This document shows, one piece after another, positions 5,485 through 56,679 of a DNA stretch of 64,000 nt. Source of the DNA: Bacteroidetes bacterium SW_9_63_38 (GTDB taxonomy: Bacteria; Bacteroidota; Rhodothermia; Rhodothermales; Salinibacteraceae); contig PXUA01000007.1 in the NCBI GenBank assembly GCA_003022435.1, positions 62,001-126,000 on the forward strand. Direction: 5' to 3'. The notes under the pieces were generated by a model, which saw nothing but the letters and a program-made list of their open reading frames with translations, made no database searches and was not told the origin of the DNA. Numbering within the stretch: the stretch's first letter is position 1; every line of letters begins with the position of its first letter. Made by a program: the position numbers and the translations under genes.

Positions 5485-6759
5485 CTATTCCTTCCCCGCT
5501 TTTATGCCCTGCAGGCTTTTCTGCGACAGCAGGTTCACGTCGTAGGTGCGCACCCGCCCATTCTGCTGGCAGTGGCGGCGCCGGGCAATCTCGACCAGCC
5601 GTTCCAGGAGTTCATCGAACGGGACGCCCGACGGCTCCCAGAGATAAAACGAAAAGGAGCCGGGAATGGTATTGATCTCATTGAAGTAAAGCTGTCCCGA
5701 CGGCTGTCGGGACTCGTCGATCATGAAGTCGATCCGCACCACCCCCGCACACTCAAAGAGGTGGAACAGCCGAACGGCCATGTCCTGGATGTGCTCGGTT
5801 CGGTCGTCGGAGAGCGGCGCCGGGACGATTCGATCGAGCGAGGCCATTCCCTCCGGCCCGTCGTCCGCCGTCTTCGCCCCACCCCCCTTCGCCTCCTCCC
5901 CGTCCTCCCGCATGTACTTGTCCTGAAAGGTGAGCACCTCGTCCTCGTCCGACGGCGTCGGCTCCTCCAGCACACTGGGCGTGGCCTCGTGCGCGTCCCC
6001 GAGCACCGAGCAGTTGATCTCCCGCATCTCAACGACGGCCTGCTCGACGATCACCTTGCTGTCGTACCGGAAGGCATCCTCGATGGCCGCGTCCAGATCC
6101 GCGCGGGTGTCGGCCCGCGCAATGCCGATCGACGAGCCGCAGCGGGCCGGCTTGACGACCATCGGGTAGCCGATCTCGGCCTCGCACCGATCCAGCCCCT
6201 CATCCTCCTGGTAGGCCCACTCTTCTTCGCGAAAGGCGACAAAGTCAACCACCGGAATGCCCACCTGCTCGCAGACCCGCTTCGACATTACCTTGTCCAT
6301 CCCGAGGGCCGATCCGAAGACGCCGGTGCTGGTGTAGGGTACGTTGCACGTCTCACACAGGCCCTGCAGGCCGCCGTCCTCTCCGGCGCCCCCATGCAGC
6401 CCCAGCAACATCACGTCAACCTGAATCCGACGCGGCGGACGCGCAAAGCGCTCGAACGCCCCGGCCTCGCGGGTTTCCAGCAGTTCCAGGTGGCCGTGCG
6501 GGGTTGGGCGCAGTGCCACCGGCGTCGCCGCCTCCAGCAGGGCATCAAGGTCAGTGTACCGATCCGCGTTCAGGAGCGCGTCGCCTGTGTACCACGTCCC
6601 GTCCTTGGCAATGTAGAGCGGCACCGGCGTGTATTTCTCCCGGTCGAGCGCCGCGGCCGCCTGCAGCGCTGAAATAATCGACACCTCGTGCTCCGGCGCC
6701 ACACCGCCCAGCGCCACCCCCACATTCACAGAATTCGTAGCCACAACAACACCCAACAA
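5485..6759 (-). CDS. ddl: D-alanine--D-alanine ligase, 424 aa
   Basis: ATP-grasp ligase that joins two D-Ala for peptidoglycan precursors. The N-terminal domain opens with NVGVALGGVAPEHEVSIIS, the family signature. The ATP-grasp part has LGMDKVMSKRV, MVVKPARCGSSIGIA and the C-terminal YFNEINTIPGSFSFYLWEP with the metal-binding Asn and Glu. At 424 aa it is longer than usual (about 310-370). Extra sequence lies in an acidic loop before the DRIVPAPL strand and just ahead of LYFNEINT, where a 20-nt palindrome is embedded in frame. The alanine racemase that supplies D-Ala is 2.9 kb away on the other strand, with dipeptidyl peptidase IV between them. Confidence 0.92.
   Translation of the reverse strand: MLGVVVATNSVNVGVALGGVAPEHEVSIISALQAAAALDREKYTPVPLYIAKDGTWYTGDALLNADRYTDLDALLEAATPVALRPTPHGHLELLETREAGAFERFARPPRRIQVDVMLLGLHGGAGEDGGLQGLCETCNVPYTSTGVFGSALGMDKVMSKRVCEQVGIPVVDFVAFREEEWAYQEDEGLDRCEAEIGYPMVVKPARCGSSIGIARADTRADLDAAIEDAFRYDSKVIVEQAVVEMREINCSVLGDAHEATPSVLEEPTPSDEDEVLTFQDKYMREDGEEAKGGGAKTADDGPEGMASLDRIVPAPLSDDRTEHIQDMAVRLFHLFECAGVVRIDFMIDESRQPSGQLYFNEINTIPGSFSFYLWEPSGVPFDELLERLVEIARRRHCQQNGRVRTYDVNLLSQKSLQGIKAGKE
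5694..5713. repeat. 20-nt palindrome inside ddl
   Basis: GTCCCGACGGCTGTCGGGAC: two 8-nt arms around a 4-nt centre. The identical 20-mer recurs at 23874-23893 in a non-coding region. In ddl it is read in frame as part of SRQPSG and adds several residues just before the conserved LYFNEINT strand. Confidence 0.85.
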
Positions 6760-6819
6760 TCAGTGCGAACAACGACGCAGTCTCACCCCCAATCTTCAAT
6801 CTTCTAATCTTCAATCTTC

Positions 6820-9156
6820 TCACTCAGGAGCTCCACGCGTCGGCTTCGAGGAAGCGATCTGCTCCTGAATAAACGACGTCAACATCCGAAACAGGTGCAG
6901 TCGCGTCGTGCCTCCGGCAATGCTGTGCCTCTTCTTCGGATACAGCATGAACTGAAATTGCTTCCCGTTCTCCTGCAGCCGCCTGGCCATCTGAATGCCG
7001 TTTTGCGGATGCACGTTATCGTCGAAGCCGCCGTGCGCGAGCAGAAGGTTCTGATGCGACTCGAGCCGGTCGGTGTAGGTCTGGGGCGCCCCCTGCACGT
7101 AACCGTCCTCATTGGCCTGCGGCGTCGACATGTACCGCTCCGTATAGATGGTGTCGTAGAGGCGCCAGTCGGTCACCGGCGCCACCGAGAGTCCTGCCGT
7201 AAAGGTCGAGGGCCCGTCGCCCGTAAGCATGGACATGAGCGTCATGTAGCCGCCGTAACTCCATCCCCAGATCCCGACCCGGTCGGGATCGACCCACGAC
7301 GAGTCGGTAAGGGCCTGTGCCGCTGCAATCTGATCGGCCGACTCCGGCTGGCCGAGACGCTGGTACGGCACGTCCTGAAAGGCCTTTCCGCGCCCCCCCG
7401 TTCCGCGGTTGTCGACACTCACCACCACTGCATCCTGGGTCTTGACGAGATACTGGTGCCACAGGTGCCGCACCCCACCCCACCGATCCGTCACCGTCTG
7501 AATGCCGGGTCCGCCGTACACGTACATCAGCACCGGGTACTGCGCCGACGGGTCGAAATCCTTGGGCTTCACGATGTAGGCGTTGAGTGGAGTCCCGTCT
7601 GCCGCCGGCAGCGTGGTGAACGACGCCGACGGCAGATTATTATGGTCGAGACGCTTTTCCAGTGCCTCGTTTTCCTTGAGGGTTGTGAGTTTCGACCCGC
7701 TCGCCTCGTGCAACGTCCACGTCGGCGGCATGCCTCGGCGCGAATGCGCGTCGATGTAATACTTCCGGTCCTTCGACATATTGATGTCGTGCCAGCCGGG
7801 AGCCGTGCTCACCTTGGTGGGCGGCATTGGGGCCTCGTGCCGCCCCAGCGACACACCCGCGCTGTAAAGGTGCCGCTCCGTCGAGTGCTCGCGGGTGGCC
7901 GTGAAGTAGGCCGTGAGCGACGCTTCGTCGACCCCGTGAAAGGCCGTGACTTCCCACTCTCCGCCCGTAATGGGCCCGAGCTTCGTTCCATCCGTCCGGT
8001 AGAGGTACGCATGGTTGTAGCCACTCCGCTCCGACAGAAAGACGAAGTGCTTGCCGTCGTCCAGGAACGAAAGCGTCTCATCCCCCACCTCAATGTAGGT
8101 GTCGTTTTGCTCCTGCAGAATGGTCTGCACCCGTCCGGTTCTCGGATCCCCGTAGAGCAAATCCAGCCTGTTCTGGTTCCGGTTCATCCGAAACATCCAG
8201 ACGCGGTGACGACCGCTGACCGTCGGCGTCCACCCCATCCGGGGAAGGTACTCGTGCTCCGTGCCCCCCTCTTCCCAGGTGTTGGTATCAAAGTACCGAA
8301 TCGCCTGCGGCTGCCGATCCTGCGACGGCCGCACCGCACTCAGGTCGATGACGCCCACCTTGATCTCGCTGTTCTTTTCTCCCGCCTTCGGATACCGGAA
8401 TCGCTTGTATTCCGGATAGCGGGTCGTGTGGTCGGTGAGGGCAAACTCGCGGGTCTCCGACTCGTCGAGCTTGAAGAACGCGATGTGCTTCCCCTCCGGA
8501 CTCCATCGCCACCCGTCGCGCACGCGAAATTCCTCCTCGTACACCCAATCGAACGTGCCGTTGATGATCGCCCCCTCACTGCCGTCGGTCGTGAGAGCTG
8601 TTTCCTGCCCCGTCTTCAAATTCTTCAGATACAGGTCACGATTCCGGATAAACGCCACCCTGGTTGCCGACGGGTTGAACTTCGCAAACATCTGATAGCC
8701 GTCGTCGCGGTCGGCCACCGGCGTGAGCGTCTGGGACGCCAACTCGTAGACGTAGTAATATCCTTTCGTATTGGCGCGCCACACCTGCTTCGAGTCGGTG
8801 TAGATGAGCACCTTGTCCCCGTCCTCGCTGAACTGGTAGTCCTCAATCGGCACGACCCGGCCTACATCATCGGCATACAGATTCACTCCGTCGATGACCC
8901 GCGTGCTGTCGTCCGTCTTCAGGTTGTAGCGCATCAGGTGGGTCGCGTCGCCGGTGTCGGCCGGCTGGATGTAGGTGATAACCGGCCCTTCGTCGGCCCA
9001 CCGCCCGCCCTGGAAGGCATCGGGCGAAAAGGCCTGCTCGGCGTGAATGTTTTTGAGCGTAAACGCCGTGGTGTCGACCGACTGGGCGTGCAGAGCATGC
9101 CCTCCGCCTACCAACAACGCCACTCCGAGAGCAAAAACACAAAGGCGACGCAACAT
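6820..9156 (-). CDS. dipeptidyl peptidase IV-type S9 peptidase, 778 aa
   Basis: Secreted serine peptidase expected to release X-Pro or X-Ala dipeptides from peptides in the periplasm or outside. The start at 9156 gives a signal peptide (MLRRLCVFALGVALLVGGG then HALHAQS). The middle is a DPP IV-type beta-propeller with YDYYDY-like 'YYYVYELASQTLTPV' and 'DWVYEEEF', the latter carrying the Glu pair that binds the substrate N-terminus in DPP IV. The catalytic triad is visible: Ser in GWSYGGYM (about 634), Asp in GGFDDNVH (about 712), His in KRHSIAGG (about 744). Length fits the family (720-800). Upstream codons as far as 9519 are open but consist of repeat DNA. Confidence 0.92.
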   Translation of the reverse strand: MLRRLCVFALGVALLVGGGHALHAQSVDTTAFTLKNIHAEQAFSPDAFQGGRWADEGPVITYIQPADTGDATHLMRYNLKTDDSTRVIDGVNLYADDVGRVVPIEDYQFSEDGDKVLIYTDSKQVWRANTKGYYYVYELASQTLTPVADRDDGYQMFAKFNPSATRVAFIRNRDLYLKNLKTGQETALTTDGSEGAIINGTFDWVYEEEFRVRDGWRWSPEGKHIAFFKLDESETREFALTDHTTRYPEYKRFRYPKAGEKNSEIKVGVIDLSAVRPSQDRQPQAIRYFDTNTWEEGGTEHEYLPRMGWTPTVSGRHRVWMFRMNRNQNRLDLLYGDPRTGRVQTILQEQNDTYIEVGDETLSFLDDGKHFVFLSERSGYNHAYLYRTDGTKLGPITGGEWEVTAFHGVDEASLTAYFTATREHSTERHLYSAGVSLGRHEAPMPPTKVSTAPGWHDINMSKDRKYYIDAHSRRGMPPTWTLHEASGSKLTTLKENEALEKRLDHNNLPSASFTTLPAADGTPLNAYIVKPKDFDPSAQYPVLMYVYGGPGIQTVTDRWGGVRHLWHQYLVKTQDAVVVSVDNRGTGGRGKAFQDVPYQRLGQPESADQIAAAQALTDSSWVDPDRVGIWGWSYGGYMTLMSMLTGDGPSTFTAGLSVAPVTDWRLYDTIYTERYMSTPQANEDGYVQGAPQTYTDRLESHQNLLLAHGGFDDNVHPQNGIQMARRLQENGKQFQFMLYPKKRHSIAGGTTRLHLFRMLTSFIQEQIASSKPTRGAPE

Positions 9157-9239
9157 AAGCACCGGCACTGGAGCAAAAAGCACGCGAACGGGGAGCGTCC
9201 CGCTACAGCAAAGGTATTCCTCGACGCCCCACCTTCGCA

Positions 9240-9510
9240 ACACACCCCCAGAGCGATTGCATGTTGGCAGATGTCCGGGGACGTAGGCACCGATTGTGCC
9301 GTTGAGCGGCCCGATTGCCCGGAACGAGCGGAGGCATGGATGCATGGAGGCAGTCACGTCGTGCCCGTCCCTCCCCTCTCGGGGGCTCCGGAGAGCAAGA
9401 TGCGATTGCCGTGCAACACACCCCCAGGGCAAATCGCATGATGGAAGGCGTCGGGAAAGCAGAAGGCGCTTTTGTCGTTCATCGACCAATCTGCCCGGAA
9501 TGAATGGGCG
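9240..9510. repeat. two copies of an interspersed intergenic repeat
   Basis: Non-coding stretch between the DPP IV gene and alr. Read on the minus strand it holds two diverged copies (about 9240-9350 and 9415-9505) of a 100-135 bp repeat. Shared blocks are CATGCCTCCG, TTCCGGGCA, GGTCGATGAA, AAAAGCGCC, CTGCTTTCCC and a 3' end GCAATCG/GCGATTT followed by CTGGGGGTGTG. Other copies lie at 13628-13760, 28690-28820 and 54700-54792. Confidence 0.7.
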
Positions 9511-9650
9511 CCTCTGCAATCTTGCGATCGTCCAATCTGCGCATCCTCACGCCACCACCGAAATTTCAACCTTCAACGACCGACCTCTGCTCCCGGAAGC
9601 CCTTCTTCCGTCGGAACCATTGAGCGGGACGCAATTTAAGGACAGCTCGT

Positions 9651-19025: not shown

Positions 19026-21752
19026 CTACTCCCCAAGCTTGTCCTTCATCTCCGACAGCTTCATCAGCGCCTCCACCGGGGTGATGCGGTTCGGGTCGAT
19101 CTCGTTGAGCATCTCCTTGATCTCCTCCGCCACCGGATCGGGCTGCCCGAAGAGGTGCATCTGGTTGGCCTGACTGTCGTCCAGGTCCGGCACGGCGTCG
19201 GCGTCGCCCTTCTTGGCCTGTACGCCCTCGTCTGCCGACGCCCCATCGCCCATCTCGCCGTCGCCGCCGACCTCCAGGTGCTGGCTCTCCAGGTTTTGGA
19301 GTACCTCGCGGGCCCGGGCAATGACCGCATCCGGCAGACCCGCCATGCGCGCCACCTCGATGCCGTAGGAATGGTCGGCCCCGCCGCGGATGAGCTTCCG
19401 CAGGAAGACGATCTCGCCCTCTGCCGAAAGCTTTCGGCACTGGATGCGGTAGTTGTGCACCCGCTCCAGGCGGTCCGCCATCGCGTTGAGCTCGTGATAG
19501 TGCGTGGCGAACAGGGTGCGCGCCGCCACCTCGGGCCGCTCATGCAGATACTCCACAATGGCCCACGCAATCGAGAGGCCGTCGAACGTGGACGTGCCGC
19601 GGCCCACCTCGTCAAACAGAATGAGGGACCGTGACGTGGCGTTGTTGAGAATGTTGGCCGCCTCGTTCATCTCGACGAGGAACGTGCTCTCGCCCGCCGC
19701 CAAGTTGTCGGACGCGCCCACACGCGTGAAGATACGGTCCACGACGCCGATGTGCGCGGCGTCCGCCGGGACGAACGAGCCGACCTGCGCGAGCAGCGTG
19801 ATGAGGCCCACCTGCCGGAGTGCCACACTCTTCCCGGCCATGTTCGGCCCGGTGATGATGAGGATCTGCTCGTCGTCCGGGTTGACGTAGGTATCATTCG
19901 GAATAAAGGGGTCGCCCGGTGGCAGCGTTTCTTCGACGACCGGATGGCGGCCCTCTTCGATATCGATTTCGAGGCTGTCGTCCACCGTCGGCCGCACGTA
20001 GTCCTGCCGCTCGGCCACCGCGGCCAGCCCCGAAAAGCAGTCGAGGTGGGCCAGGAGCTCGGCGTTCTGCTGCAACTTTCCGGTCTCCTGCGCAATCATG
20101 TCGCGCAGTTCGTTGAAGAGCTCCAGCTCCAGTGTCTCGATCTTCTCCTCCGCCGTCAGGATCTTCTCCTCCATCTCCTTCAGCTCCGGCGTCACGTAGC
20201 GCTCGGAGTCGACGAGCGTCTGCTTCCGGATGTAGTCGTCGGGCACCTTGTCGGCATGCGTGTTGGTGACCTCCAGGTAGTAGCCGAAGACCTTGTTGAA
20301 CCCGACCTTGAGGGAGGGGATGGCGGTGCGTTCGCTCTCCTCCTTCTCCAGGTTGGCGACCCAGTCCTTCCCCTCCTGCGCGATGGTACGCAGTTCGTCC
20401 AGCTCCTCGGAGTAGCCGTCGCGGATGAGGCCGCCCTCGCTAATCTTGGCGGGCGGGTCGTCCACGAGCGCGCTCCGGATCTTCTCGACGATGTCGGGGC
20501 AGGGGCTCAGCTGCTCCTGGATCTCGTCGAGCGCATCGGACTCGGCGTCGGCCAGCCGCTCCTTGACCGCCGGCAGGCGGCGCAAGGTCTGTTTGATCGC
20601 AATGAGGTCGCTCGGGGAGGCGCGGCCGGTGGCCACCTTGCCGGACAGGCGCTCCAGGTCGCCCATCTGGCCGAGTTCCTCGCGGAGGTCGTCGCGGAGG
20701 TGCCGATCGTCGACGAACGCGTCTACGGCGTCGAGGCGGTGCTGAATGCGGTCCACATCGCGCAGCGGACGCACCAGCCAGGCGCGGAGGCGACGCCCGC
20801 CCATCGGCGTCTCCGTGTCGTCGAGGATGCTCACAAGCGTCCCCTCGTGCCCGTCGTCTTGGATGGACTGTACGAGCTCCAGGTTGCGCTTCGTCTCGGG
20901 ATCGAGGGCAATGTGCTTCTCCTTCGAGTACCGCTTGATCTTGCGGACGTGGGGCAGCTTGCGCTGCTGCGTCTCGCCCAGGTAGTGGAGCGCCGCCCCC
21001 GCGGCAATGACGCCCAGGTCCATGTCGTCGACCCCAAAGCCCTTCAACGAGTGCGTGTCGAAGTGCTCCAGCAGCGTCTGGTAGGCGAAGTCGTACTTGA
21101 ACACCCAATCCTCCTGCTCGGTCACCGTGAACGCCACCTCCCGCAGCCGTTCCTGCAGCCGATCCGTGCGGCGCTTGTCGAGGATGACCTCCGAGGGCGC
21201 CACCGTCTGAATCAGGTCCGGCAGCTCCTCGATGCCGGCCTCCGTGACACTGAACTCGCCGGTCGTGGCGTCGATGAACGCAAAGCCGATCCGGTCCTTG
21301 TCGCGCCCCGTGCCGAAGTGGACGGCGGCGAGGAAATTGGACTGCTTCGGGTTCAGGAGTTGGTCATGAAACGAGACGCCGGGCGTGACGACCTCTACCA
21401 CGTCGCGGTCCACCACCTTGCCGCTCGAATTGTCGGCGTCCTCCGTCTGCTCGCAGATGGCCACGCGGAGGCCCGAGCGGATGAGCTTGGGCAGATGGCT
21501 GTCGAGGGCGTGGTGGGGAAAGCCCGCCATCGGCACGTCGTCGGCCTCTCCGTTGTTGCGCTCCGTGAGCGTGATGCCGAGGAGGCGGCTCACGGTCTTC
21601 GCGTCGTCGTCGAAGGCTTCGTAGAAGTCGCCCATGCGAAACAGCAGAATCGCCTTCGGATGCCGCTCCTTGATCTTGTAGTACTGCCGCATGAGGGGCG
21701 TGCGCCCCTTGTTGGTCGTCGACGAAGCAGTGTCGGTCTGCGAGTCAGCCAT
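19026..21752 (-). CDS. mutS: DNA mismatch repair protein MutS, 908 aa
   Basis: Recognises mismatches and recruits MutL. All domains are present: the mismatch-binding N-terminus (TPLMRQYYKIKERHPKAILL, then FRMGDFYEAF with the intercalating Phe and Glu), connector, lever and clamp, then the ABC ATPase with Walker A GPNMAGKSVALRQ, Walker B LILFDEVGRGTSTFDG and FATHYHEL. Start chosen at ATG 21752 rather than a TTG seven codons upstream. The C-terminus has an acidic linker and the short helical dimerisation tail. An 18-nt palindrome is embedded in frame in the ATPase domain (positions 19422-19439), adding about two residues relative to usual MutS proteins. Confidence 0.95.
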   Translation of the reverse strand: MADSQTDTASSTTNKGRTPLMRQYYKIKERHPKAILLFRMGDFYEAFDDDAKTVSRLLGITLTERNNGEADDVPMAGFPHHALDSHLPKLIRSGLRVAICEQTEDADNSSGKVVDRDVVEVVTPGVSFHDQLLNPKQSNFLAAVHFGTGRDKDRIGFAFIDATTGEFSVTEAGIEELPDLIQTVAPSEVILDKRRTDRLQERLREVAFTVTEQEDWVFKYDFAYQTLLEHFDTHSLKGFGVDDMDLGVIAAGAALHYLGETQQRKLPHVRKIKRYSKEKHIALDPETKRNLELVQSIQDDGHEGTLVSILDDTETPMGGRRLRAWLVRPLRDVDRIQHRLDAVDAFVDDRHLRDDLREELGQMGDLERLSGKVATGRASPSDLIAIKQTLRRLPAVKERLADAESDALDEIQEQLSPCPDIVEKIRSALVDDPPAKISEGGLIRDGYSEELDELRTIAQEGKDWVANLEKEESERTAIPSLKVGFNKVFGYYLEVTNTHADKVPDDYIRKQTLVDSERYVTPELKEMEEKILTAEEKIETLELELFNELRDMIAQETGKLQQNAELLAHLDCFSGLAAVAERQDYVRPTVDDSLEIDIEEGRHPVVEETLPPGDPFIPNDTYVNPDDEQILIITGPNMAGKSVALRQVGLITLLAQVGSFVPADAAHIGVVDRIFTRVGASDNLAAGESTFLVEMNEAANILNNATSRSLILFDEVGRGTSTFDGLSIAWAIVEYLHERPEVAARTLFATHYHELNAMADRLERVHNYRIQCRKLSAEGEIVFLRKLIRGGADHSYGIEVARMAGLPDAVIARAREVLQNLESQHLEVGGDGEMGDGASADEGVQAKKGDADAVPDLDDSQANQMHLFGQPDPVAEEIKEMLNEIDPNRITPVEALMKLSEMKDKLGE
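19422..19439. repeat. 18-nt palindrome inside mutS
   Basis: TGCCGAAAGCTTTCGGCA, a perfect palindrome, read on the coding strand as part of CRKLSAE in a surface-loop position just before the conserved IVFLRKL strand. A near-identical palindrome, TACCGAAAGCTTTCGGTA, lies in non-coding DNA at 28568-28585. Confidence 0.75.
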
Positions 21753-23750: not shown

Positions 23751-23876
23751 ACGGGAGTGAAGAAGGAAGTACTTTCAGAGTGCGCCCCGACTGAACGGGA
23801 GCGAAGAAGGAAGTGGTCTCCGGGCCACGCCCCGACTGAACACGTCGATCTAGATCGACAGGAACGAGGAAGTGTC
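23736..23876 (+). repeat. imperfect tandem repeat copying the end of the usp gene
   Basis: Three units start with GCGCCCCGACTGAACGGGA or a variant of it (from 23738, 23783 and 23828) and end in GAAGAAGGAAGT or GAACGAGGAAGT. The first unit includes the last sense codons and the TGA of the stress protein gene. The third unit is more diverged. The spacing is about 45 bp. Confidence 0.7.
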
Positions 23877-23893
23877 CCGACGGCTGTCGGGAC
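23874..23893. repeat. 20-nt palindrome, identical to the copy inside ddl
   Basis: GTCCCGACGGCTGTCGGGAC directly after the usp tandem repeat and 30 bp before the 3' end of the DUF3047 gene. It is non-coding here. As a hairpin it could also act on transcript 3' ends, but no T-run follows. Confidence 0.8.
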
Positions 23894-36243: not shown

Positions 36244-36308
36244 GAAATGACAAGAGCCCGGCCGACTCATCGACCGGGCTTCTCATCAGCTCCCCGGGCT
36301 GGATTCGA
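36244..36308. repeat. 65-bp direct repeat, copy 2
   Basis: Copy belonging to the intact tRNA-Asn; see 35847-35911. The plus-strand segment AGCCCGG (36255-36261) pairs with CCGGGCT (36274-36280) and is probably the tRNA-Asn terminator hairpin. Confidence 0.9.
36255..36280 (-). terminator. hairpin downstream of tRNA-Asn
   Basis: AGCCCGG and CCGGGCT arms around a 12-nt loop, immediately 3' of the tRNA on the minus strand; followed by CTCTTGTCATTTC, only moderately T-rich. Duplicated at 35858-35883. Confidence 0.5.
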
Positions 36309-36361
36309 ACCAGCAGCCCTGCGGTTAACAGCCGCATGCTCTACCGTTGAGCTACCGAGGA
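36290..36361 (-). tRNA. tRNA-Asn (GTT)
   Basis: Full cloverleaf on the minus strand: acceptor TCCTCGG/CCGGGGA with one G-T pair, D arm GCTC/GAGC, anticodon stem TGCGG/CCGCA with loop CTGTTAA (anticodon GTT), T arm GCTGG-TTCGAAT-CCAGC, discriminator G, no encoded CCA. Confidence 0.93.
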
Positions 36362-36389: not shown

Positions 36390-36467
36390 CCTCGGGCTGG
36401 GTTCGATCCCGCGTGCCGACAGTTGCCGGCATAACAGCCACATGTTCTACCGTTGAGCTACCGAAGA
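36390..36467 (-). pseudogene. degenerate tRNA-Asn with inserted palindrome
   Basis: Upstream of the intact tRNA-Asn on the same strand. It keeps both acceptor strands (TCTTCGG and CCGAGG), the D arm with one mismatch (GCTC/GAAC) and the GTT anticodon (GGCTGTTA), but has ATGCCGGCAACTGTCGGCAC where the anticodon 3' strand, variable loop and T stem begin, and the T loop reads ATCGAAC. Unlikely to make a working tRNA. Confidence 0.75.
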
Positions 36468-41168: not shown

Positions 41169-41252
41169 GCCCGAGTGGCGGAATTGGTAGACGCGCGTGA
41201 TTCAGGGTCACGTGTCCGCAAGGACGTGGAGGTTCGAGTCCTCTCTCGGGCA
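41169..41252 (+). tRNA. tRNA-Leu (CAG)
   Basis: Type II tRNA: acceptor GCCCGAG/CTCGGGC, anticodon stem CGTGA/TCACG with loop TTCAGGG (anticodon CAG), long variable arm GTCC-GCAA-GGAC, T loop TTCGAGT, discriminator A, no encoded CCA. It is the attachment target of the element that follows. Confidence 0.94.
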
Positions 41253-41259
41253 CTGGTCT

Positions 41260-41379: not shown

Positions 41380-41435
41380 GGTCACGTGTGCCGACCGCCG
41401 TCGGCACGGGGAGGGTCGAGTCCTCTCTCGGGCAC
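41380..41435. repeat. attL, 56-bp direct repeat
   Basis: Begins GGTCACGTGTGCCGACCGCC and ends CTCTCTCGGGCAC. The outer parts match the anticodon 3' strand, T arm and acceptor of tRNA-Leu at 41169-41252, but the variable arm is replaced by the palindrome GTGCCGACCGCCGTCGGCAC. Confidence 0.88.
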
Positions 41436-41551
41436 CAACGAAAAATGCCCCTCAGCGCCTTCAAACGGCGATTCAGGCGGGTTTTCTTTTTGCCGTTTCA
41501 GAAAGAGGTGGAGACAGATAGACACAATATGCGTTATCTGGTACGCTCTAC

Positions 41552-41579
41552 GGGGACGTCGTGGGGACGAGATGGGGAC
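41552..41579. repeat. three GGGGAC direct repeats at 11-bp spacing
   Basis: GGGGAC starts at 41552, 41563 and 41574, one helical turn apart, between attL and the integrase 3' end. Possible integrase arm-binding sites; inferred from position only. Confidence 0.5.
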
Positions 41580-41583
41580 ACCT

Positions 41584-42372
41584 CTATTCCCCTCCGAACG
41601 TCTCGTCCATCGCTCGCTCCATCACGTCGGGGCTGAGGTGGCTGTACATCTCCGTGACCTGCGTATTCGAGTGTCCAAGAATCTCTGAAATCACACGGAG
41701 CGGCACCCCTTGCATCGACAGCCACGAGCCGGTTGTGTGTCGGCACGAGTGGAAGGAGAGCTCCTCCCGGTTGGAGAGCTTCGCCTTGCGGACGTAGAAC
41801 GTGAACCGCTTGGAGACCCGATCCGGCTTGGGCACGTCGTCGTTGGCGTCCACGAACACCGGATCGTTGTCTAAAGACGACCGCTCCTCCTTCATCGCCC
41901 GAAGCGTCTCCAGTGCATCCCCACGGAGGGGCACCGTTCGCTCGTTTCCGTTCTTCGCGGTGAAGCCCTCTCGGTTGCCTGTCCCTCGTTGACGCGGGCG
42001 TGGATGTAGCTATGAACGTGATCCGGCTGCACGTCTCGCACCGTTGCCCCGGTGGGCGTGTGCCGCACGAAGCTGTTGAGCTTGTACTCGTACCCGTCGA
42101 GCGTGCTCTCTTGGAGGCCGTCCCTTTGCCTCCGGAAAGCGATCCACTGCGTCCGAAACGGTCTCGTTTTCCACGAGCCACCCAGCTGGCTGGGTTCCGC
42201 CGTTCCAGGGGTCATAATCGCCCCGGGCGTACGCCTCCTCCAGACGCCGCATCTTCGGTTCGGCAACCGACTTCCGACTCGTCCCGAGGGCGACCTCCTT
42301 CCGCTTCGGGGAGCGATCTGAATCGTAGAACCGGGCGCTGTATCGGCCTTTGTGCTTCCGTGGAGAAGCCAT
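41584..42372 (-). pseudogene. tyrosine integrase, frameshifted with internal deletion
   Basis: The start at 42372 gives an AP2/Arm-type N-terminal DNA-binding domain (MASPRKHKGRYSARFYDSDR). The frame breaks between about 42118 and 42135; the core-binding domain continues in another frame (LQESTLDGYEYKLNSFVRH). At about 41980 the frame changes again and the sequence jumps from the core-binding domain (SYIHARVNEGQATE) to the C-terminal catalytic part (GNERTVPLRGDALE, then FHSCRHTTGSWL with HxxR, and LGHSNTQVTEMYSHLS with the nucleophile Tyr). About 130 residues holding the first catalytic Arg are absent. It cannot be active as it stands. Confidence 0.85.
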
Positions 42373-42386
42373 AGCTGAGGGGACAG

Positions 42387-42809
42387 TTACTGAGAAGTGC
42401 CGTCTGTGTCGTCGAGAAAGGCGTCGTAGGGAACGCGGTATTTGCCCGTCCCCCACGGCGGCGGTTCTTCTCCTTGGTTGCGGAGGCGACGCCGTTCCTT
42501 GAGGGCCTCTTTCCAGCCCTTGAGGCTCCGTGCTCCCTCTGCGGACGGCGTGCCCGACAGCATTCCCTTCACGGATAGATCCTCGTCCAACAGGGGCCAG
42601 TGAAGGCCGCGCCCGCGCCCGGCAACCTCGAACTGCTGACGTTCGTGCGAGGTGGCAAACGCGAGGCGGGGATACCATTCGAGCGGGGTCGTGACGGTGC
42701 GGCCGTCTTCAAGATGCACGGTCAACTCGTCTTTGTTGACCTCCGCATCGACGATTCGGGCCGTCTCGTGCCGGTCGGCAGTGTCGGGAGCGCGTTTACG
42801 AGTAGGCAT
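42387..42809 (-). CDS. DUF2442 protein, 140 aa
   Basis: From residue about 15: ARIVDAEVNKDELTVHLEDG, RTVTTPLEWYPRLAFAT and GRGLHWPLLDEDLSVKGML form the DUF2442 pattern (a small NEDD/MazE-size beta domain). The C-terminal 50 residues extend beyond the usual domain. Its start overlaps the end of the DUF4160 gene by 14 bp, so the two are translationally coupled. DUF2442 and DUF4160 genes are often neighbours and have been discussed as toxin-antitoxin-like; the activity is not established. Confidence 0.82.
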   Translation of the reverse strand: MPTRKRAPDTADRHETARIVDAEVNKDELTVHLEDGRTVTTPLEWYPRLAFATSHERQQFEVAGRGRGLHWPLLDEDLSVKGMLSGTPSAEGARSLKGWKEALKERRRLRNQGEEPPPWGTGKYRVPYDAFLDDTDGTSQ

Positions 42810-43029
42810 TCCAGGCGTCGAGTAGGTCTTGTTCGTGTTCTTCGAGTAGGCGACGGATCTCACGGAGCTCGTGCCGGGGAAACCCGCCGCTCCGTTCCAG
42901 GCGCACAGGGTCCAACCAGAATTTCGCTTCGTTGCGGTCGCGCTCGACGTGCACGTGCGGCGGTTCCTCCAGGCGATCCTGCGAGTAGAAGTGCACCCGG
43001 TACGGCCCTTCACGGAGAATGGTCGGCAT
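42796..43029 (-). CDS. DUF4160 protein, 77 aa
   Basis: MPTILREGPYRVHFYSQDRL, EEPPHVHVERDRNEAKFWL and ELREIRRLLEEHEQDLLDAW make up a complete DUF4160 domain; the PPHVHV motif is its hallmark. Encoded between the HTH gene (47 bp upstream) and the DUF2442 gene (overlapping), so a three-gene operon is likely. Small size and pairing suggest a toxin-antitoxin-like module, but which partner would be toxic is unknown. Confidence 0.85.
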   Translation of the reverse strand: MPTILREGPYRVHFYSQDRLEEPPHVHVERDRNEAKFWLDPVRLERSGGFPRHELREIRRLLEEHEQDLLDAWNAYS

Positions 43030-43076
43030 TCGCCCAACGGGCTTACGAGTGGAGAGCAGCGATGGTGCGTCCCCGT

Positions 43077-43292
43077 TTACTCTGACTCGTCTTCGTCGGA
43101 GAGCTTCCGCACCCGAGCGCCCTTGAGCCGAGGCTCGAACTCCTCCCACGCCTCGTCTTTGAGGAGCATCCGGCGCCCGCCCACCTCCACGTCGTTGAGG
43201 CGCCCGTCGTCCGCCGCCCGGTAGAGCGTGGTCCGGCTGCATCCGATCTCTCGGGCCGCGTCGCTGAAACTGATGAGATCGTTGGGGTCCAT
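43077..43292 (-). CDS. excisionase-like HTH protein, 71 aa
   Basis: MerR/Xis-type winged helix: LISFSDAAREIGCSRTTLYR, AADDGRLNDVEVGGRRMLL, then an acidic tail. First gene of the minus-strand operon with DUF4160 and DUF2442. Its position beside the integrase suits an excisionase, and its position behind a palindromic operator suits an autorepressor; both can be true for this fold. Confidence 0.8.
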   Translation of the reverse strand: MDPNDLISFSDAAREIGCSRTTLYRAADDGRLNDVEVGGRRMLLKDEAWEEFEPRLKGARVRKLSDEDESE

Positions 43293-43337
43293 CGGTCGGG
43301 GGTGTCGTGCGCATCGAATGGAGTATATTAGACACTC

Positions 43338-43358
43338 TACGGAACGTCTCGTTCCGTA
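43338..43358. promoter_or_regulatory. 9-bp inverted-repeat operator in a divergent promoter region
   Basis: TACGGAACG (43338-43346), spacer TCT, CGTTCCGTA (43350-43358): a perfect dyad, 46 bp upstream of the HTH gene start and 48 bp upstream of the plus-strand gene. GTATATTA just to the left (43323-43330) could be a -10-like element for the minus-strand operon. Likely binding site of the adjacent HTH protein. Confidence 0.7.
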
Positions 43359-43405
43359 AAGTATGCAGGTGATGTGTGCGTAGTCGAGTAACGAGCTGGG
43401 AGACG

Positions 43406-44169
43406 ATGGACAAAGATGTGAACGACTATCGACGGTTGGCCGACAAGGAGGGAATTGGGGAGTTGAATGAGCGGGAAAGAGCGATAGAGGGCACGGTTGA
43501 GTGGCTTGAGAAGCACATAACACAGCTTCTCGAAGACGTTGAGGGGAGAATTGAGGACGTATACCCTGAGAAGTCAGATGACAAAAAGAGTGAACTGATG
43601 GCTTGGATTCAGGCGAGCGTGGCAATGGACTCTCCTAGGCTATACCTAGTGGGAACGCTACAGCAAGATTTGGATGATGAGGTGGCCGCTGTGCTTGTTC
43701 GATGTAAATACCCACGACTGTTTGTCGAGGATGAAGAGAGGCGAGACTATTGGGGGCTGTATGGGACTGAATTCATACCCTGCGCAGAGAAGAAAGAGGA
43801 CTGGAGGAACGACTGGGCTATGTACAGAAGGCTCGTGCCAAACATCTTTTGTTGGGCGAAGAGGAGCCCGAACAAACCCTCCCCAATCTATTCAACAGGC
43901 GCCCTACCCTCCGCGGCCATGCCGAACGCCTCGTGAAGAAATACCGCCAGCCATCTACCTGCCTCCCCCATGGCATGGAGGCGTTCAAGGAATGGGTACC
44001 CGATGGACCAAACGCGGAGGGAAGGAGCATCGTGGCCCAAATGCAAACTGCATTCAGGGAGGAGGATCTTTCCGACAGGTACGACGACCCTGAATCGTTC
44101 TGTGAGCTTGTCAAACGCCTGCTGGAGAGGCATTTCAACACTCGTCTGAAACGTTCTGAAATGTTCTAA
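43406..44169 (+). pseudogene. unknown element gene, apparently frameshifted
   Basis: Two overlapping frames read as one protein. The first runs from MDKDVNDYRRLADKEGIGEL to about KKEDWRNDWAMYRR; the second, in another frame, continues KARAKHLLLGEEEPEQTLPN, FNRRPTLRGHAERLVKKYRQ and ends LLERHFNTRLKRSEMF. The frame change lies between about 43790 and 43850. I recognise no domain. The base composition is clearly less GC-rich than the surrounding genes, a sign of separate origin. It might instead be two overlapping genes. Confidence 0.45.
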
Positions 44170-44400
44170 CCCCCCGGCCTGGTGCACGTGAGAGGTGGCG
44201 AGGAAGCCGGAGACCGACATGCTGACTCGCCGCCGTCTCCCGGCTGCGCACACGCAGGTACTGCCCTCCAGTGATGCCCTCCGGCTTCCTCAGCTGGAAG
44301 GCATACCTGTATGTGCGCACCACGAAGAAAACCCGCTCCGAGCGGTGACTCGAAGCGGGCGCAAGGTGGGCCGGGAGCGGCAAAGATCCAACGTGTCCTT

Positions 44401-44733
44401 ATGGTAGCGAACAGAGACGACTCCGACAAGGGAGATTCCCCACCGGAAGACAGTCTACGGGAGCAGTTACGCGCCCTCGTGGACGGGCTCCGTGAGGACG
44501 TACAGGCCCTCCGTGAGGAAGTGCAGGCCCTACGCCGGAAGGAGTCCCCCGAAGGCCCCGACGCGCTTCTTCCCCGTGAAGAGGCGGCCGAAACGCTTGG
44601 GATCTCCGTGCGCACCCTCGATGATCTTGCGGAGGCGGGCGAGATTCAGCCGGTACGCATCCGAGGCCGCGTCCTCTACGCCCCCGACACGCTTGAGGCG
44701 TTTGTCCGGCGCAAAGCCGGGGAGGGCCGATAG
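44401..44733 (+). CDS. helix-turn-helix DNA-binding protein, 110 aa
   Basis: N-terminal heptad-like coiled coil (REDVQALREEVQALRRKE), then an excisionase/MerR-type HTH: LLPREEAAETLGISVRTLDD, LAEAGEIQPVRIRGRVLYAP and TLEAFVRRKAG. ATG at 44401. It ends directly against the start codon of the primase gene (stop TAG then ATG), so the two are cotranscribed; a regulator or replication-accessory role is plausible. Confidence 0.8.
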   Translation: MVANRDDSDKGDSPPEDSLREQLRALVDGLREDVQALREEVQALRRKESPEGPDALLPREEAAETLGISVRTLDDLAEAGEIQPVRIRGRVLYAPDTLEAFVRRKAGEGR

Positions 44734-47125
44734 ATGGATACCTCGACGCGACCCGACACGAGAACGCGCTCCACACGTCCCTCCGCTCCCTCGAGCCGCA
44801 CCGATCCCGACGATGTACGCGCCCGCCTTGGCACCCGCGACCACCGGCGTATTTTGAAAAGGTGCGGGTTCGTGAAGGACTGGGGCTCCGGTGGCTACGA
44901 GGGCGACGTGTTCGACGTGGTGAAGGACGTGCATGGGCTGGACTTCCCTGATGCCCTCGAATGGATCGCGGACGAGTTGAATCTCAACGCTTCAACACTG
45001 GAACGAGAGGCTGCGAATGGGAGCTCCTCCGAGGCGTCCACCTCCACATCCGACAACGACGATCCCGAGCCGGTCGCCTCCCACGAGCAAGTTCAGAAGT
45101 GGCACGAGCGGCCCGTGGGCGAGTCCGAGGCTGCACAGACCGCCCGATCGTACCTGATGGGCGAGCGGGGACTCCATCCGGGCGTCGTGAAAATGGCCCA
45201 CGTGGGCCTTGCCCACAAAAGCGAGATTCCCGACGATTGGAGCGGCTTCTACAGAGCAGAGGCGCATTCGGTGACGCGGTGGATCATCTTTCCAGTGGCT
45301 CGACGCGACCTCGACGGGGCGCCCATCGTCTCCGTGAAGGGTGTAGCCTTCAACCCCTCAACGTGCGACTGGATGCGCAATGAGGACGGGGAGAAGATTC
45401 CGAGCAACGTCTCCTCTGCCCTGAGGGACCTCGTACCTACGGAGAAGGACGGCACGCCGCGAATCGACGGGCCGGTGGTCGTCTGTGAGGGCGAGCTCGA
45501 CGCGCTGTGTGCCCTCTCCTGTGGCTTCAATGCAGTGACGGGCACCGCAGGAGCCAGGACATTCAAGCGAGTGGGCGTCGTACCTTGCCCGCGTTGGGCC
45601 CGCACAGGACCACGGCGTTGTCGTGGCGTTCGATGGGGACGAGACGGGACGAGAGGGAGCACAGACCGCCGCTGGGCTTCTCCACGAGGTGTCTCTGGAG
45701 GTGCGGATTGCCTCCCTTCCCGATGGGATGGACGTGAACGACGTGCTCGTGGAGGGCGACGCGGCGGATCTGGATGCCCATCTCGAACAGGCCGAACCCT
45801 GCGACCCTTCCGAGACAGATACGGCCGTTGAGGGAGAAGACACGGGGGAGCCTGGAGGCGAGCCCGAGCTCCCGTACGAGCCGTTTCCGATGGATGCCCT
45901 CCCCGGCCCCATCCGGGCTTACGTCCGTGCCTCGACGCGAGCACTCGGGGAGGAGGTGCCGCCCGCAATGGTCGCAGTGCCTACGCTGTCCGTCCTGTCC
46001 GGTACCGTAGTCGACGCGGCGCGTCTCGAACTGAAACGCTCGTGGACCGAGCCCGCGACGCTGTGGACGGTGCTCGTGACCCCATCGGGCTCTACCAAAT
46101 CCCCGGCCTTCTCCCACGCCGTCCGCCCTGTCTTTCGGCGTGACTCGGAGGCCCGAGACGAGCACGAGAAGGCCCTTGCGGAGTGGAAATCGCAGGATGA
46201 TCCCGACCCGCAAGATAAGCCGACGCGCAAGCGATTCCGCACCGGAGACGCGACGCCGGAGGCCGTGGTGAAGATCCTGGAGGAGAATCCTCGGGGCGTC
46301 CTTCTCGCCCGCGACGAACTGGGGGCGTGGATCGGCTCGTTCGACCGCTACGTGAACGGCGCCGCCGACCTCCAATTTTGGGTAGAGGTGTGGCAAGGGT
46401 TTCAGGCGTCACGGGACCGGGCCGGGGAGGGCAACACGACCGTGGACACGCCCGCCGTGCCTGTGACCGGCACGATCCAACCGGGCACCCTCACGGAGAA
46501 GTTAGGGGAGATCCATTTCGATACCGGCTTTGCGGCTCGCCTCATCCTGTGCCAGCCGCCCACAGTGGCGAAGCGGTGGACCGAGGCGGACGTGGCCCCC
46601 GGCGTTCGTGACGCCTACGAGCACACTCTTACGCGTCTCTACGGACTGGGCCGTGGGCAGGCCCTTTCCCTCTCCCCTGATGCAAAACGCCTGTGGATCG
46701 ACTATCACAACGAGGCGAACGCCAACCTGGAGACCCGGCTCGAAGGCCCCGCGAAGGCCGTTGCCGCGAAGGGAATTACGCACACCGCCCGCCTTGCACT
46801 CGTGCTCCATCTGTGCCGGAGAGCGAGCCGGGAAACCGACTCGAACGAGGTGGACGCCGCAAGCGTGGAGGCCGCCCTCCAGGTAGGCCGGTGGCTTACG
46901 GAGGAGACGCTCCGTGTCTACCGGATGCACAATCTCGGAGCGAAGGCAAAGCCGCCCATCCGTCGATTCCTGGAGAGGCTCCCCGACAGGTTCGAGACGA
47001 GCGACGCGAAGGAGGTTGCTGCATCCAACGACATTCCCGAGCGGACTTGTGAGAAGTGGCTCCGTGACCTCACAGACGCCTCCGACCTCGAAAAGATCAA
47101 GCGTGGACTGTACCGAAAAGCCTGA
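44734..47125 (+). pseudogene. TOPRIM primase fused to DUF3987 helicase-like domain, one frameshift
   Basis: Part 1 (44734 to about 45570): a shortened CHC2-like region (GSGGYEGDVFDVVKDVHGLD) without the zinc cysteines, then TOPRIM strand 1 VVVCEGELDALCALSCGFNA. The frame then shifts: the second frame reads SSEWASYLARVGPAQDHGVV followed by VAFDGDETGREGAQTAAGLL, which is the DxD half of TOPRIM. Part 2 continues with DUF3987 (PAMVAVPTLSVLSGTVVDAA, TVLVTPSGSTKSPAFSHAV, LARDELGAWIGSFDRYVNG) and a C-terminal winged-helix-like end to 47125. No slippery heptamer is visible at the junction, so decay or sequence error is more likely than programmed frameshifting. This is the element's replication gene. 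Confidence 0.82.
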
Positions 47126-47273
47126 CTGTTTTGCCGCTTGCGGTTTGCGGTAGCTGCGGAAGTCTTCACAAAACCGGGGGGAATGTGAAGGAAACTCCAG
47201 TAACTCCAAACTCCAACCGAGTAAATGACTCTCGAACGCTCCGCTGTTTAAACCAACCCGGAAATCCAATCCA

Positions 47274-47570
47274 ATGCCAAAAGCCCCCAGGAATCCCGAC
47301 CGGGACGACCGGCACGCTCGACGGCGTGGAGGGGAGGACTCCGACCCCGACGGCCGTGACGCCGCGTCGCTCCTGTACGGCGGGCCCGACCACAGCGACG
47401 GCTCAACCGACACAGACACCGACACAACCGACACCCCGACCGATGCCCGATCTCCTACCGGAAGCCGTGGACTTTGGCCTCCTTCTCGTGGTGGTCCTGT
47501 GCGCACACACCCCGCTCGTGGCGAGGCCCGATTACCTCACGTACGTTCCAAATCTCGAATAACCCCATAG
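47274..47570 (+). CDS. doubtful small acidic, Thr/Asp-rich protein
   Basis: MPKAPRNPDRDDRHARRRGG followed by a Thr/Asp repeat (DTDTDTTDTPTD). The frame's second half looks out of frame; another frame from 47443 reads MPDLLPEAVDFGLLLVVVLC, a possible membrane peptide. No family recognised. One of the two may be real. Confidence 0.25.
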   Translation: MPKAPRNPDRDDRHARRRGGEDSDPDGRDAASLLYGGPDHSDGSTDTDTDTTDTPTDARSPTGSRGLWPPSRGGPVRTHPARGEARLPHVRSKSRITP

Positions 47571-47574
47571 ACCA

Positions 47575-48099
47575 ATGCCGTTTGAGGGCGCGAAACAATG
47601 TACCGCCACCGCAAAGAGCACGGGCGAGCGGTGCCAGAACCCCGCCGTGACCGGATGGGACGTGTGCCGGATGCACGGTGCGGGAACGCCGAAGAACGGC
47701 ACGAGCGGAGGCGCTCCCCCCAAGCACGGTCGCTACGCTGCGAAGCGCCGAGAGAGCCTCCAGGAGAAGATTGAGGAGTACCGACGGGAGGACGATCCCG
47801 CAAGCCTGTGGGAGGAGGTGGCCCTCCTTCGTGCCCTTCTCCAGGAGTGGCTGTCCGAGCTGGAGACGGTGGACGAGGACACGGTGGGCGTCGTACTGGA
47901 CCTCCAGGATTCGATCCGTCGCACCCTCAATACGATCAACAAGATTCAAACCCGCACGGCGCTAACCCAAGCCGAGGTGGAGTACCTGCAAGCCCGCATG
48001 GCCGACGTGCTCAAAACGCACGTGCCGAAAGACCGGCGGGCCGATGCAATCGAAGACCTGAAAGCCCTCACTACCCCTTCCAAACAGCGCCGCAACTGA
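47575..48099 (+). CDS. HGG-motif phage-type protein, 174 aa
   Basis: The N-terminus has the Cys/His cluster CTATAKSTGERCQNPAVTGW and CRMHGAGTPKNG, followed by GGAPPKHGRY: a zinc-knuckle-like pattern found in phage and plasmid proteins near packaging genes. The rest is helical and charged (SLWEEVALLRALLQEWLSEL). Some relatives are annotated as small-terminase-like; whether it acts in packaging here is inference. It supports a phage-satellite origin for the element. Confidence 0.7.
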   Translation: MPFEGAKQCTATAKSTGERCQNPAVTGWDVCRMHGAGTPKNGTSGGAPPKHGRYAAKRRESLQEKIEEYRREDDPASLWEEVALLRALLQEWLSELETVDEDTVGVVLDLQDSIRRTLNTINKIQTRTALTQAEVEYLQARMADVLKTHVPKDRRADAIEDLKALTTPSKQRRN

Positions 48100-48114
48100 G
48101 CAGCACCTGAACCG

Positions 48115-48423
48115 ATGAACGATCCAACTGGGAGCCCCGACAGCCTCCGAAGCGACAGCCCCGTGAGCCCCGACGCATACAGCAATCTCGTGTCCGGGAT
48201 TGAAGAGAGGGTAGAGGCAACCAGAGGCCGAGCGGCGGACTGGGATCTCTATGAGCCGGAAGCGGCCAAAAATGAGGGGGCCGAGCCGCCCCCGAGCGAC
48301 CTTTCCGATCCGGCGTGGACCGTGCCGAACGGTTGGATGGAGCGGAGCGAAACGCCCCTCGACAGCGCAGACGGCCCGATACTCTTCATTTGGGCCGCCC
48401 CTGACGACGTAGAACGCCCATGA
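48115..48423 (+). CDS. small element protein A (SPxAxNxLVxGIEE family), 102 aa
   Basis: No known family. The segment SPDAYSNLVSGIEERVE near residues 18-34 matches segments in the next two genes, and the C-terminus GPILFIWAAPDDVERP resembles the end of the third. Acidic, no membrane segment. Its stop overlaps the next start (ATGA). Confidence 0.6.
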   Translation: MNDPTGSPDSLRSDSPVSPDAYSNLVSGIEERVEATRGRAADWDLYEPEAAKNEGAEPPPSDLSDPAWTVPNGWMERSETPLDSADGPILFIWAAPDDVERP

Positions 48424-48716
48424 CTGACCTTCCCGACCCCGTAAGCCCGAGTGCCCTAAACGACTTTCTTGGCGGTGTTTTTGACCGCCTCCCAGATCGG
48501 GAAGAGTGGCAAAAGGTGTGTGAGTACAAGCGACAGCTTGCCCATCGAGGACAGGCGTTTCTGTCTCGCTTCCGTGGAGAGCCTACGGCGATGCCGCCGG
48601 TGCCCGATCCTCCCGACTGCATCCCGAGGCCAACACGTCCCATCGAAGAAATCCGGCAGTCTCTCGCCGAACGTGCCGCTCGGCTCGGCACTGAGGAGGA
48701 CGAAAAGCGAGAGTGA
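48420..48716 (+). CDS. small element protein B, 98 aa
   Basis: Starts MTDLPDPVSPSALNDFLGGV, the same N-terminal pattern as its neighbours, then a different, longer C-terminus (PTRPIEEIRQSLAERAARLG). Overlaps the preceding gene by 4 bp, so it is translationally coupled. No family recognised. Confidence 0.55.
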   Translation: MTDLPDPVSPSALNDFLGGVFDRLPDREEWQKVCEYKRQLAHRGQAFLSRFRGEPTAMPPVPDPPDCIPRPTRPIEEIRQSLAERAARLGTEEDEKRE

Positions 48717-48760
48717 GCACTCGCCTTTACGTGGACCGATCCCAACAACATCACAAGCCC

Positions 48761-48991
48761 ATGAACGACCTCGTAAGCCCCGTCGCACTCAACAACCTCG
48801 TGAATGGCATCGAAGAGGAGGCCGTGGGCAAAGACCCCGGCCCCATCGCTTGTACGGTGGGCGAGGGATTCGACCACGACCCGCCCCGCTCATTCCAGAC
48901 GGAGGAGGCCCGAGAGTATTTCGACGAACGGGAGGCGGAACCAACGCTCGTGATCTTTGCCCCTGTCCCGGAAGAGAAGCGGAAGGAGTGA
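48761..48991 (+). CDS. small element protein C, 76 aa
   Basis: MNDLVSPVALNNLVNGIEEE is clearly related to the N-terminus of protein A, and EPTLVIFAPVPEEKRKE to its C-terminus. ATG at 48761. Last gene before the right end of the element. No family recognised. Confidence 0.6.
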   Translation: MNDLVSPVALNNLVNGIEEEAVGKDPGPIACTVGEGFDHDPPRSFQTEEAREYFDEREAEPTLVIFAPVPEEKRKE

Positions 48992-49039
48992 GCCCCCAAT
49001 CTGCGTTCGACTGAGAGCCCGTGTATAGGCCCGAAAACC

Positions 49040-49076
49040 GGGGGAAATAGGATGTAATGGGGGAATTATGGGGGAA
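49040..49076. repeat. three GGGGGAA direct repeats near the right end
   Basis: GGGGGAA at 49040, 49059 and 49070, the last two 11 bp apart, about 80 bp inside attR. They mirror the GGGGAC repeats near attL and could be recombination accessory sites. Confidence 0.45.
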
Positions 49077-49153
49077 CTGTTTTCGGACACCCCTCAAAAT
49101 CGGCGTTCTACGATGCTGAACGGTGAAATAAGATAAACCCACACGTTATTCGT

Positions 49154-49209
49154 GGTCACGTGTGCCGACCGCCGTCGGCACGGGGAGGGTCGAGTCCTCT
49201 CTCGGGCAC
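49154..49209. repeat. attR, 56-bp direct repeat
   Basis: Identical to 41380-41435, including the central palindrome GTGCCGACCGCCGTCGGCAC (49162-49181). Beyond 49210 the sequence returns to chromosomal style; 49210-49432 has no gene. Confidence 0.88.
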
Positions 49210-56617: not shown

Positions 56618-56659
56618 GGTGCGTAGATGCGTATGTACGTGTGTGGGTATGTGAGCAGT

Positions 56660-56679
56660 GTCCCGACTACTGTCGGGAT
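56660..56679. repeat. 20-nt palindrome GTCCCGACTACTGTCGGGAT
   Basis: Member of the palindrome family (centre TACT, one arm base changed). It lies in the 135-bp gap between the AhpD-like and metallophosphoesterase genes and is followed by GTGGGAGTGTGGGAGCGTGG word repeats. Confidence 0.8.

Follow-up and report, generated by a model that had tools for sequence, protein, structure and literature searches.

Palindromes at the locus

We examined a stretch of 64,000 nucleotides (nt) from Bacteroidetes bacterium SW_9_63_38 (contig PXUA01000007.1, positions 62,001 to 126,000; the window), through which a family of 18- to 20-nt palindromes is scattered. The host is a salt-loving bacterium, represented by a metagenome-assembled genome (MAG) of 2.84 Mb that is 84% complete and lies near Salinivenus/Salinibacter; the nearest records to its Ddl protein come from Salinivenus, Salinibacter and other Rhodothermota. 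A first-pass annotation had claimed nine palindromes between 5694 and 56679, and every one is present at exactly the coordinates given. Their reported scatter through genes (ddl, mutS), tRNA remnants (tRNA-Asn and tRNA-Leu) and spacers (the copy at 56660) is likewise borne out. The palindromes and the features around them are as follows.

5694-5713, no strand assigned: palindrome in ddl, read in frame as SRQPSG, net gain of 9 nt in the orthologue alignment
19422-19439, no strand assigned: TGCCGAAAGCTTTCGGCA in mutS, 12 nt replaced, net gain of 6 nt, 10 of 10 relatives without the palindrome
23874-23893, no strand assigned: palindrome for which no coding frame was found; its 20 nt match the ddl copy exactly
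28470-28660, no strand assigned: repeat resembling a miniature inverted-repeat transposable element (MITE), with inverted ends GAACCTGTTT...AAACAGGTTC
28568-28585, no strand assigned: TACCGAAAGCTTTCGGTA inside the MITE-like repeat, downstream of tRNA-Phe
35918-35937, minus strand: palindrome in a tRNA-Asn 3' remnant, 10 nt replaced, net gain of 8 nt
36289-36361, minus strand: functional tRNA-Asn (GTT), without palindrome
36413-36432, minus strand: imperfect palindrome (6 of 7 arm positions paired) within a tRNA-Asn-like pseudogene of full length, which lies upstream of the functional gene
41169-41253, plus strand: functional tRNA-Leu (CAG), whose variable arm TCCGCAAGGA is the stretch exchanged in the remnants
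41388-41407, plus strand: palindrome in a tRNA-Leu 3'-half remnant, left 10 nt identical, right 27 of 29
49162-49181, plus strand: palindrome in a second tRNA-Leu 3'-half remnant, left 9 nt identical, right 27 of 29
56660-56679, no strand assigned: palindrome with TACT centre in a G/T-rich spacer, a context that recurs elsewhere in the genome

A family with paired arms and a free centre

The copies had been described by the plan GTNCCGA-N6-TCGGNAC. Pairing of the arms and freedom of the centre hold up, but the outer GT and AC are not fixed among 47 perfect copies from the host genome. Within an 18-nt core (the 18-mer), the arms pair at 7 of 7 positions in eight of the nine window copies and at 6 of 7 in the copy at 36413-36432; the reported identity of the copies at 5694 and 23874 over 20 nt is confirmed. 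The wider census covers fetched DNA of the host itself, with 77 core matches among those listed, 63 of them having at least 6 arm pairs and 47 having all 7. R-TCCCGAC-N4-GTCGGGA-Y is the common form of these 47. The first base beyond the 18-mer, pooled over both arms (n=94), is G in 46, A in 34, C in 13 and T in 1. Pair 2 is C-G in 37 copies, G-C in 7, A-T in 2 and T-A in 1, and pair 7 is C-G in 38, A-T in 8 and G-C in 1, counts that come from copies preselected for perfect pairing and are informative only in the variety of pair types. Centres include AGCC/GGCT (13 of the 47) and AGCT (9). The copies at 19422 and 28568 belong to a CCGAAAGCTTTCGG subtype, and the former, in mutS, behaves like the rest. 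Copies are almost always single in the fetched stretches, which span ~2.6 kb each and so leave wider pairing outside view; the exceptions are a triple in L062 and close pairs in L079 and L086, at spacings of 218-673 nt.

The suggestion that such a site is not due to chance is well founded, both in the window and genome-wide. The window has 6 occurrences of CCGAC-N4-GTCGG against 0.39 expected, with none of 100 shuffles reaching 6, and CCGAAAGCTTTCGG occurs twice against 0.00 expected. Across the 2.84 Mb of the genome, KNCCGACNNNNGTCGGNM has 41 matches against 1 for its reversed control and YCCGAHNNNNDTCGGR has 77 against 3. It is scarcely credible that the palindromes are regulatory hairpins or terminators, or a by-product of GC-rich DNA. 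One copy does stand directly after tRNA-Val and before a T-run, but a four-T run lies near only 2 of the 47 perfect copies, and an intrinsic terminator was rejected on this ground; chance was rejected on the counts, which far exceed both shuffles and reversed controls. We also rejected a repeat of the HIP1 type, which occurs in thousands of copies as a fixed octamer evenly spread, as against 41-77 copies here with a free centre.

A further palindrome in the window, GATCCCGACCCGGTCGGGATC at 7270-7290, inside a minus-strand open reading frame (ORF) at 6820-9519, has the same arms around a 3-nt centre and may be a family member or a chance occurrence.

Copies in genes appear to replace short stretches of the orthologues

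Copies are under-represented in genes, yet still common there: of the 47 perfect copies, 21 are in sequence resembling coding sequence, compared with 436 of 600 positions taken at random from their loci. These 21 fall into the three frames as 12, 9 and 0, encoding SRQxSG or PDSxRD, and the 28 with at least 6 pairs as 15, 12 and 1. That many copies lie deep in housekeeping reading frames speaks against a protein-binding site, which the first-pass annotation had offered as one possibility.

We compared 11 gene sites with their orthologues: HrpB1 to HrpB3, IleRS1 and IleRS2, ddl, mutS, CysRS, UvrB, and the CCA-adding enzyme (CCA1 and CCA2). Ddl, MutS (by NCBIfam) and UvrB are named by homology, and HrpB, IleRS, CysRS and the CCA-adding enzyme are putative assignments read from the peptides. 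Empty sites are the rule, the palindrome being absent from every aligned relative except at ddl in locus L017. Palindrome-free rows number 13/13 at each of the three HrpB sites, 15/15 at both IleRS sites, 10/10 at mutS, 11/11 at CysRS, 16/16 at UvrB and 15/15 at both CCA sites, where two rows represent one genome. At ddl, 8 of 9 rows (L018-L025) are free of it, and the ninth, L017, lies in genome G060, whose contigs and coordinates equal those of the congener G008; the ddl copy is found in two independently assembled genomes. For the noncoding copy at 23874, the relatives offered one distant partial match in L222 and none in L223.

The empty sites do not have the form of the clean insertions that had been anticipated, as the palindromes stand in place of other sequence, with net gains of 6, 8 or 9 nt across genes and tRNA remnants. 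None of the 11 aligned gene sites shows a clean 18- to 20-nt insertion or a target duplication. The net gain is 6 nt at seven sites (HrpB1 as the modal value, HrpB2, IleRS2, mutS, CysRS, UvrB and CCA2), 9 nt at HrpB3 and ddl, 12 nt at CCA1 (14 of 15 rows) and 33 nt at IleRS1. At nine of the 11 sites, then, a modal 12 or 9 nt was exchanged for an 18-nt palindrome in frame. At HrpB1, where 12 rows were used, the corresponding stretch is 12 nt in 7, including the sister G008, and 18 nt and non-palindromic in 5. The best Protein Data Bank match to Ddl has a four-residue gap opposite the palindrome peptide, probably between two beta-strand segments.

The lost stretches themselves resemble small hairpins, examples being CCCTGATGCGGG in IleRS and GTGCTCGCTCAC in mutS. 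Over nine of the 11 sites and part of the relatives, with IleRS1 and CCA1 set aside in advance for poor alignment or atypical form, the ends of the lost stretch pair at 2.38 of 4 positions. Neighbouring stretches in those genes average 1.07, and none of 20,000 draws was as high. Likeness of these ends to the palindrome ends is 4.12 of 8 against 2.40, again with 0 of 20,000 draws. Since the mutS stretch pairs well but scores only 1.10 of 8 in likeness to the palindrome, structure rather than shared letters appears to be what matters. Pairing of the lost ends, together with the symmetry of arm changes, would also be expected if the palindromes had grown in place, that is, if quasi-palindromes had been perfected by intrastrand template switching and selected as hairpins in mRNA or DNA. 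We regard such growth as quite unlikely, because only a common source would give unrelated sites the same arms and similar centres.

Recurrent placement in tRNA remnants

Beside functional tRNA-Asn, tRNA-Leu and tRNA-Met genes stand tRNA-like copies, some partial and some whole, in which 10 nt are exchanged for a palindrome, with a net gain of 8 nt in all three. The program MAFFT prefers to align the remnants with 8 nt inserted; replacement of 10 nt is our own reading of the same alignment. The cleanest case is in G008 (contig C95), where TCCGCAAGGA, the 10-nt hairpin of the tRNA-Leu variable arm, is swapped for the 18-mer, with 15 nt to the left and 29 nt to the right identical to the functional tRNA-Leu of the window. 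Remnants of tRNA-Asn with a palindrome are also present in G008 and, in four copies, in G014, which belongs to another genus. As the tRNA-Asn remnants share a GCGGG T-stem, they suggest one old event followed by duplication and should not be counted as independent events. A tRNA scan of the host genome returned 37 tRNAs, with no remnant among them. Of 30 tRNA loci, to which the window tRNA-Leu does not belong, 5 have perfect-arm palindromes no more than 400 bp away, six palindromes in all, and one more lies at ~640 bp.

Between the two tRNA-Leu 3'-half copies, at 41388 and 49162, lies a stretch of 7.8 kb (41388-49181) that contains a DUF3987/Toprim_2 gene (45623-47125) and, in overlapping frames, DUF2442 and DUF4160 ORFs; this stretch is possibly an integrative element. 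Such an arrangement lends some colour to the idea that the remnants are integrase attachment sites with the palindrome as recombinase core. That explanation is nonetheless highly unlikely for the family: no integrase was found among 18 distinct ORFs checked, a part of those in the bracketed stretch, most copies lie far from tRNAs and without cargo, the centre would have to serve as the overlap yet varies freely, and the functional tRNA copies have no palindrome.

Nesting in other repeats

The family also occurs inside other repeats. Nine distinct copies of the MITE-like repeat were read by eye, and four contain the palindrome, one of these with a changed end. At the same place, four others contain GGCACACTAGTGTGCC, GGCACACTGGTGTGCC (two copies) or GGCAAGCGTGCTTGCC, and one is too diverged; three kinds of hairpin are seen at one place. 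The central hairpins of this repeat are interchangeable, and copies of it lie near tRNA-Phe and tRNA-Pro. In G012 (L204-L207), the palindrome sits within a longer dispersed hairpin repeat. In G014 and G021, the form TTCCGAC..GTCGGAA occupies, next to tnpA, the loop of a different hairpin repeat, and a second copy of that hairpin repeat at the same locus is without it. In G008 (L454), a copy lies in frame inside a tnpB-type gene (PF01385, PF07282), as a passenger.

Patchy spread and a possible Y1 transposase link

Copy number is patchy among relatives. TCCCGACNNNNGTCGGGA occurs 28 times in the host, 17 times in G011, 15 in G008, 14 in G021 (another genus), 5 in G012, 4 in G014 and 3 in G006, with 1-2 copies in several more. 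It is present in 15 of 60 genomes and absent from 45, including 5 of 12 congeners, and the numbers reflect lineage-wise amplification. Among viral contigs, at least 120 stretches fit the palindrome pattern, with no sign beyond chance as judged without a formal expectation.

A link to a transposase of the RAYT (REP-associated tyrosine transposase) or IS200 type, where REP denotes repetitive extragenic palindrome, had been proposed as a check, and the outcome is mixed. The number of palindromes correlates with matches to Y1_Tnp, with rho of 0.55 over 60 genomes, 0.47 over the 27 of the family and 0.60 over the 13 of the genus, values that are uncorrected for phylogeny and MAG completeness. Y1_Tnp matches occur in 25 of the 60 genomes; a family palindrome lies within ~450 bp of one in 3 of 14 fetched loci, and in L458 and L459 palindromes are ~80-110 bp from tnpA. 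Against the link, Y1_Tnp finds no match in G011 despite its 17 copies, and several genomes have matches but no copy, among them G018 and G020 with strong ones. The host has one weak RAYT-like gene (L107, 1563-2201, minus strand), which is located within a different array of tandem 17- to 41-nt repeats (1148-2277); a hairpin related to the family, CCCGA-CGCTAC-TCGGG, lies ~60 nt upstream of it.

The correlation and the proximity in L458 and L459 would fit classical REP elements, single hairpins moved by a RAYT, with the missing bases due to later drift. It may be added that tagged REPs inside genes, including those for tRNA synthetases and DnaE, are described in a published account (PMC3733652). 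We nevertheless consider classical REPs an unlikely source. A GTAG or CGTC tag is found within 10 nt of 4 of 47 copies, compared with 8.1 expected; genomes such as G011, G018 and G020 are exceptions to the correlation in both directions; the L454 copy is a passenger in its tnpB-like gene; and in L458 and L459 it is true REP-like hairpins with GTAG that flank tnpA, whereas the family palindrome is nested in the loop of a different hairpin repeat.

Comparison with known systems

The open-access literature gave no match for CCCGATAGCTATCGGG or five further family sequences, and only related families were found; one further paper, PMC2864250, concerns CRISPR. REPs and their REPIN (paired REP) forms with RAYTs are, according to PMC3733652 and PMC3116915, similar in being short dispersed palindromes, intergenic and in frame, some Y1-linked and lineage-specific. 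The present family differs in its 18- to 20-nt size, the lack of a GTAG/CGTC tag, replacement of the target stretch and recurrence in tRNA remnants; unlike REPINs, the copies seen form no inverted doublets that would make a larger hairpin. Unlike MITEs, which have terminal inverted repeats and a target site duplication, it shows replacement at aligned sites and no duplication.

The small dispersed repeats (SDRs) of Nostoc, described by Elhai et al. in 2008 (cited in PMC3116915), are reportedly ~20-nt structured sequences, thought to be mobile and often nested in other repeats. On that description they would resemble our family in size, structure, presumed mobility and nesting, but they differ in phylum and presumably in sequence. 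We know of no account of hairpin replacement by SDRs.

Rickettsia palindromic elements are, as PMC10969869 and PMC3733652 describe them, palindromes in frame in housekeeping genes, tagged with CGTC according to the latter. They are ~100-150 bp long with a conserved coded peptide, whereas the family measures 18 nt, adds 2-3 net codons and uses two frames. Neurospora PstI palindromes, yeast GC clusters and Podospora MUSE1 are presented in PMC7218506 and PMC4478555 as ultra-short, GC-rich and regarded as mobile, some flanking tRNA genes, and the GC clusters as merging and shuffling. These fungal and algal mitochondrial palindromes are organellar, and the GC clusters have a putative target duplication, of which none was seen in the family. 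Our palindrome appears to work like a REP, an SDR or a mitochondrial GC palindrome, but it has neither the REP tag, nor the MITE duplication, nor the size of a Rickettsia element.

A probable ultra-short mobile palindrome

A mobile palindromic mini-element, as the first-pass annotation suggested, is the best reading because of the genome-wide excess, the patchy copy number and the empty orthologous sites, and more precisely an untagged micro-element akin to REPs or SDRs. The same observed basis includes the net lengths, the likeness of the lost stretches to hairpins and the three kinds of hairpin at one MITE place. We think it probable, judging from sequence comparison, that an ultra-short mobile palindrome, the 18-mer TCCCGAC-N4-GTCGGGA with arm variants that keep pairing, spreads in the Salinivenus/Salinibacter group by hairpin-for-hairpin replacement. 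More tentatively, and with somewhat less than even expectation, this may be a separate way for DNA to move: an 18-nt palindrome would substitute for small stem-loops in genes, tRNA variable or anticodon arms, REP loops and MITEs, with no target duplication or enzyme of its own, and would edit housekeeping proteins by 2-3 codons.

In such a process, the target would be a short stem-loop, with 7-12 nt lost, 18 nt gained and no target duplication. A target hairpin on exposed single-stranded DNA would be opened or cut at its foot, after which resealing or re-copying would bring in a palindrome from another place, the donor presumably being another copy of the family. The agent may be a Y1/HUH nuclease acting on the hairpin feet or replication template switching between hairpins. 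In genes, a copy would survive only where it leaves the reading frame intact and reads as SRQxSG or PDSxRD.

Several points weigh against replacement by a mobile palindrome. Movement and donor would be read from comparison across species, and the comparison covers 11 gene sites in species 76-88% alike at best, so that the lost stretch is seen through divergence. At HrpB1, the 18-nt non-palindromic stretch in 5 of 12 relatives makes length no mark of the event; one of the 15 CCA1 rows has no gap; and the IleRS1 palindrome is imperfect, in addition to its gain of 33 nt. The null for end pairing covered neighbouring stretches generally rather than protein loops, where turn codons may pair by nature, and only some sites pass 5% when taken singly.

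If mobile, the palindrome would rank with the smallest mobile DNA of bacteria. Replacement, if true, would mean mobility at a scale too small for a transposon end and tied to pre-existing secondary structure. It would also offer a natural route by which essential proteins, with MutS, UvrB, CysRS, IleRS and Ddl among those compared, acquire small changes that keep the frame. The mechanism is testable, as close species with many copies and with none are at hand.

Other repeats in the host genome

Two further repeats were observed. A second repeated palindrome, GCCGGACGAGTCCGGC, occurs in L070 at 1626, L091 at 296, L105 at 1376 and L387 at 2060, and a dispersed repeat of ~310 nt, with many copies in the host's own genome, lies at ~13340-13650 in L210.

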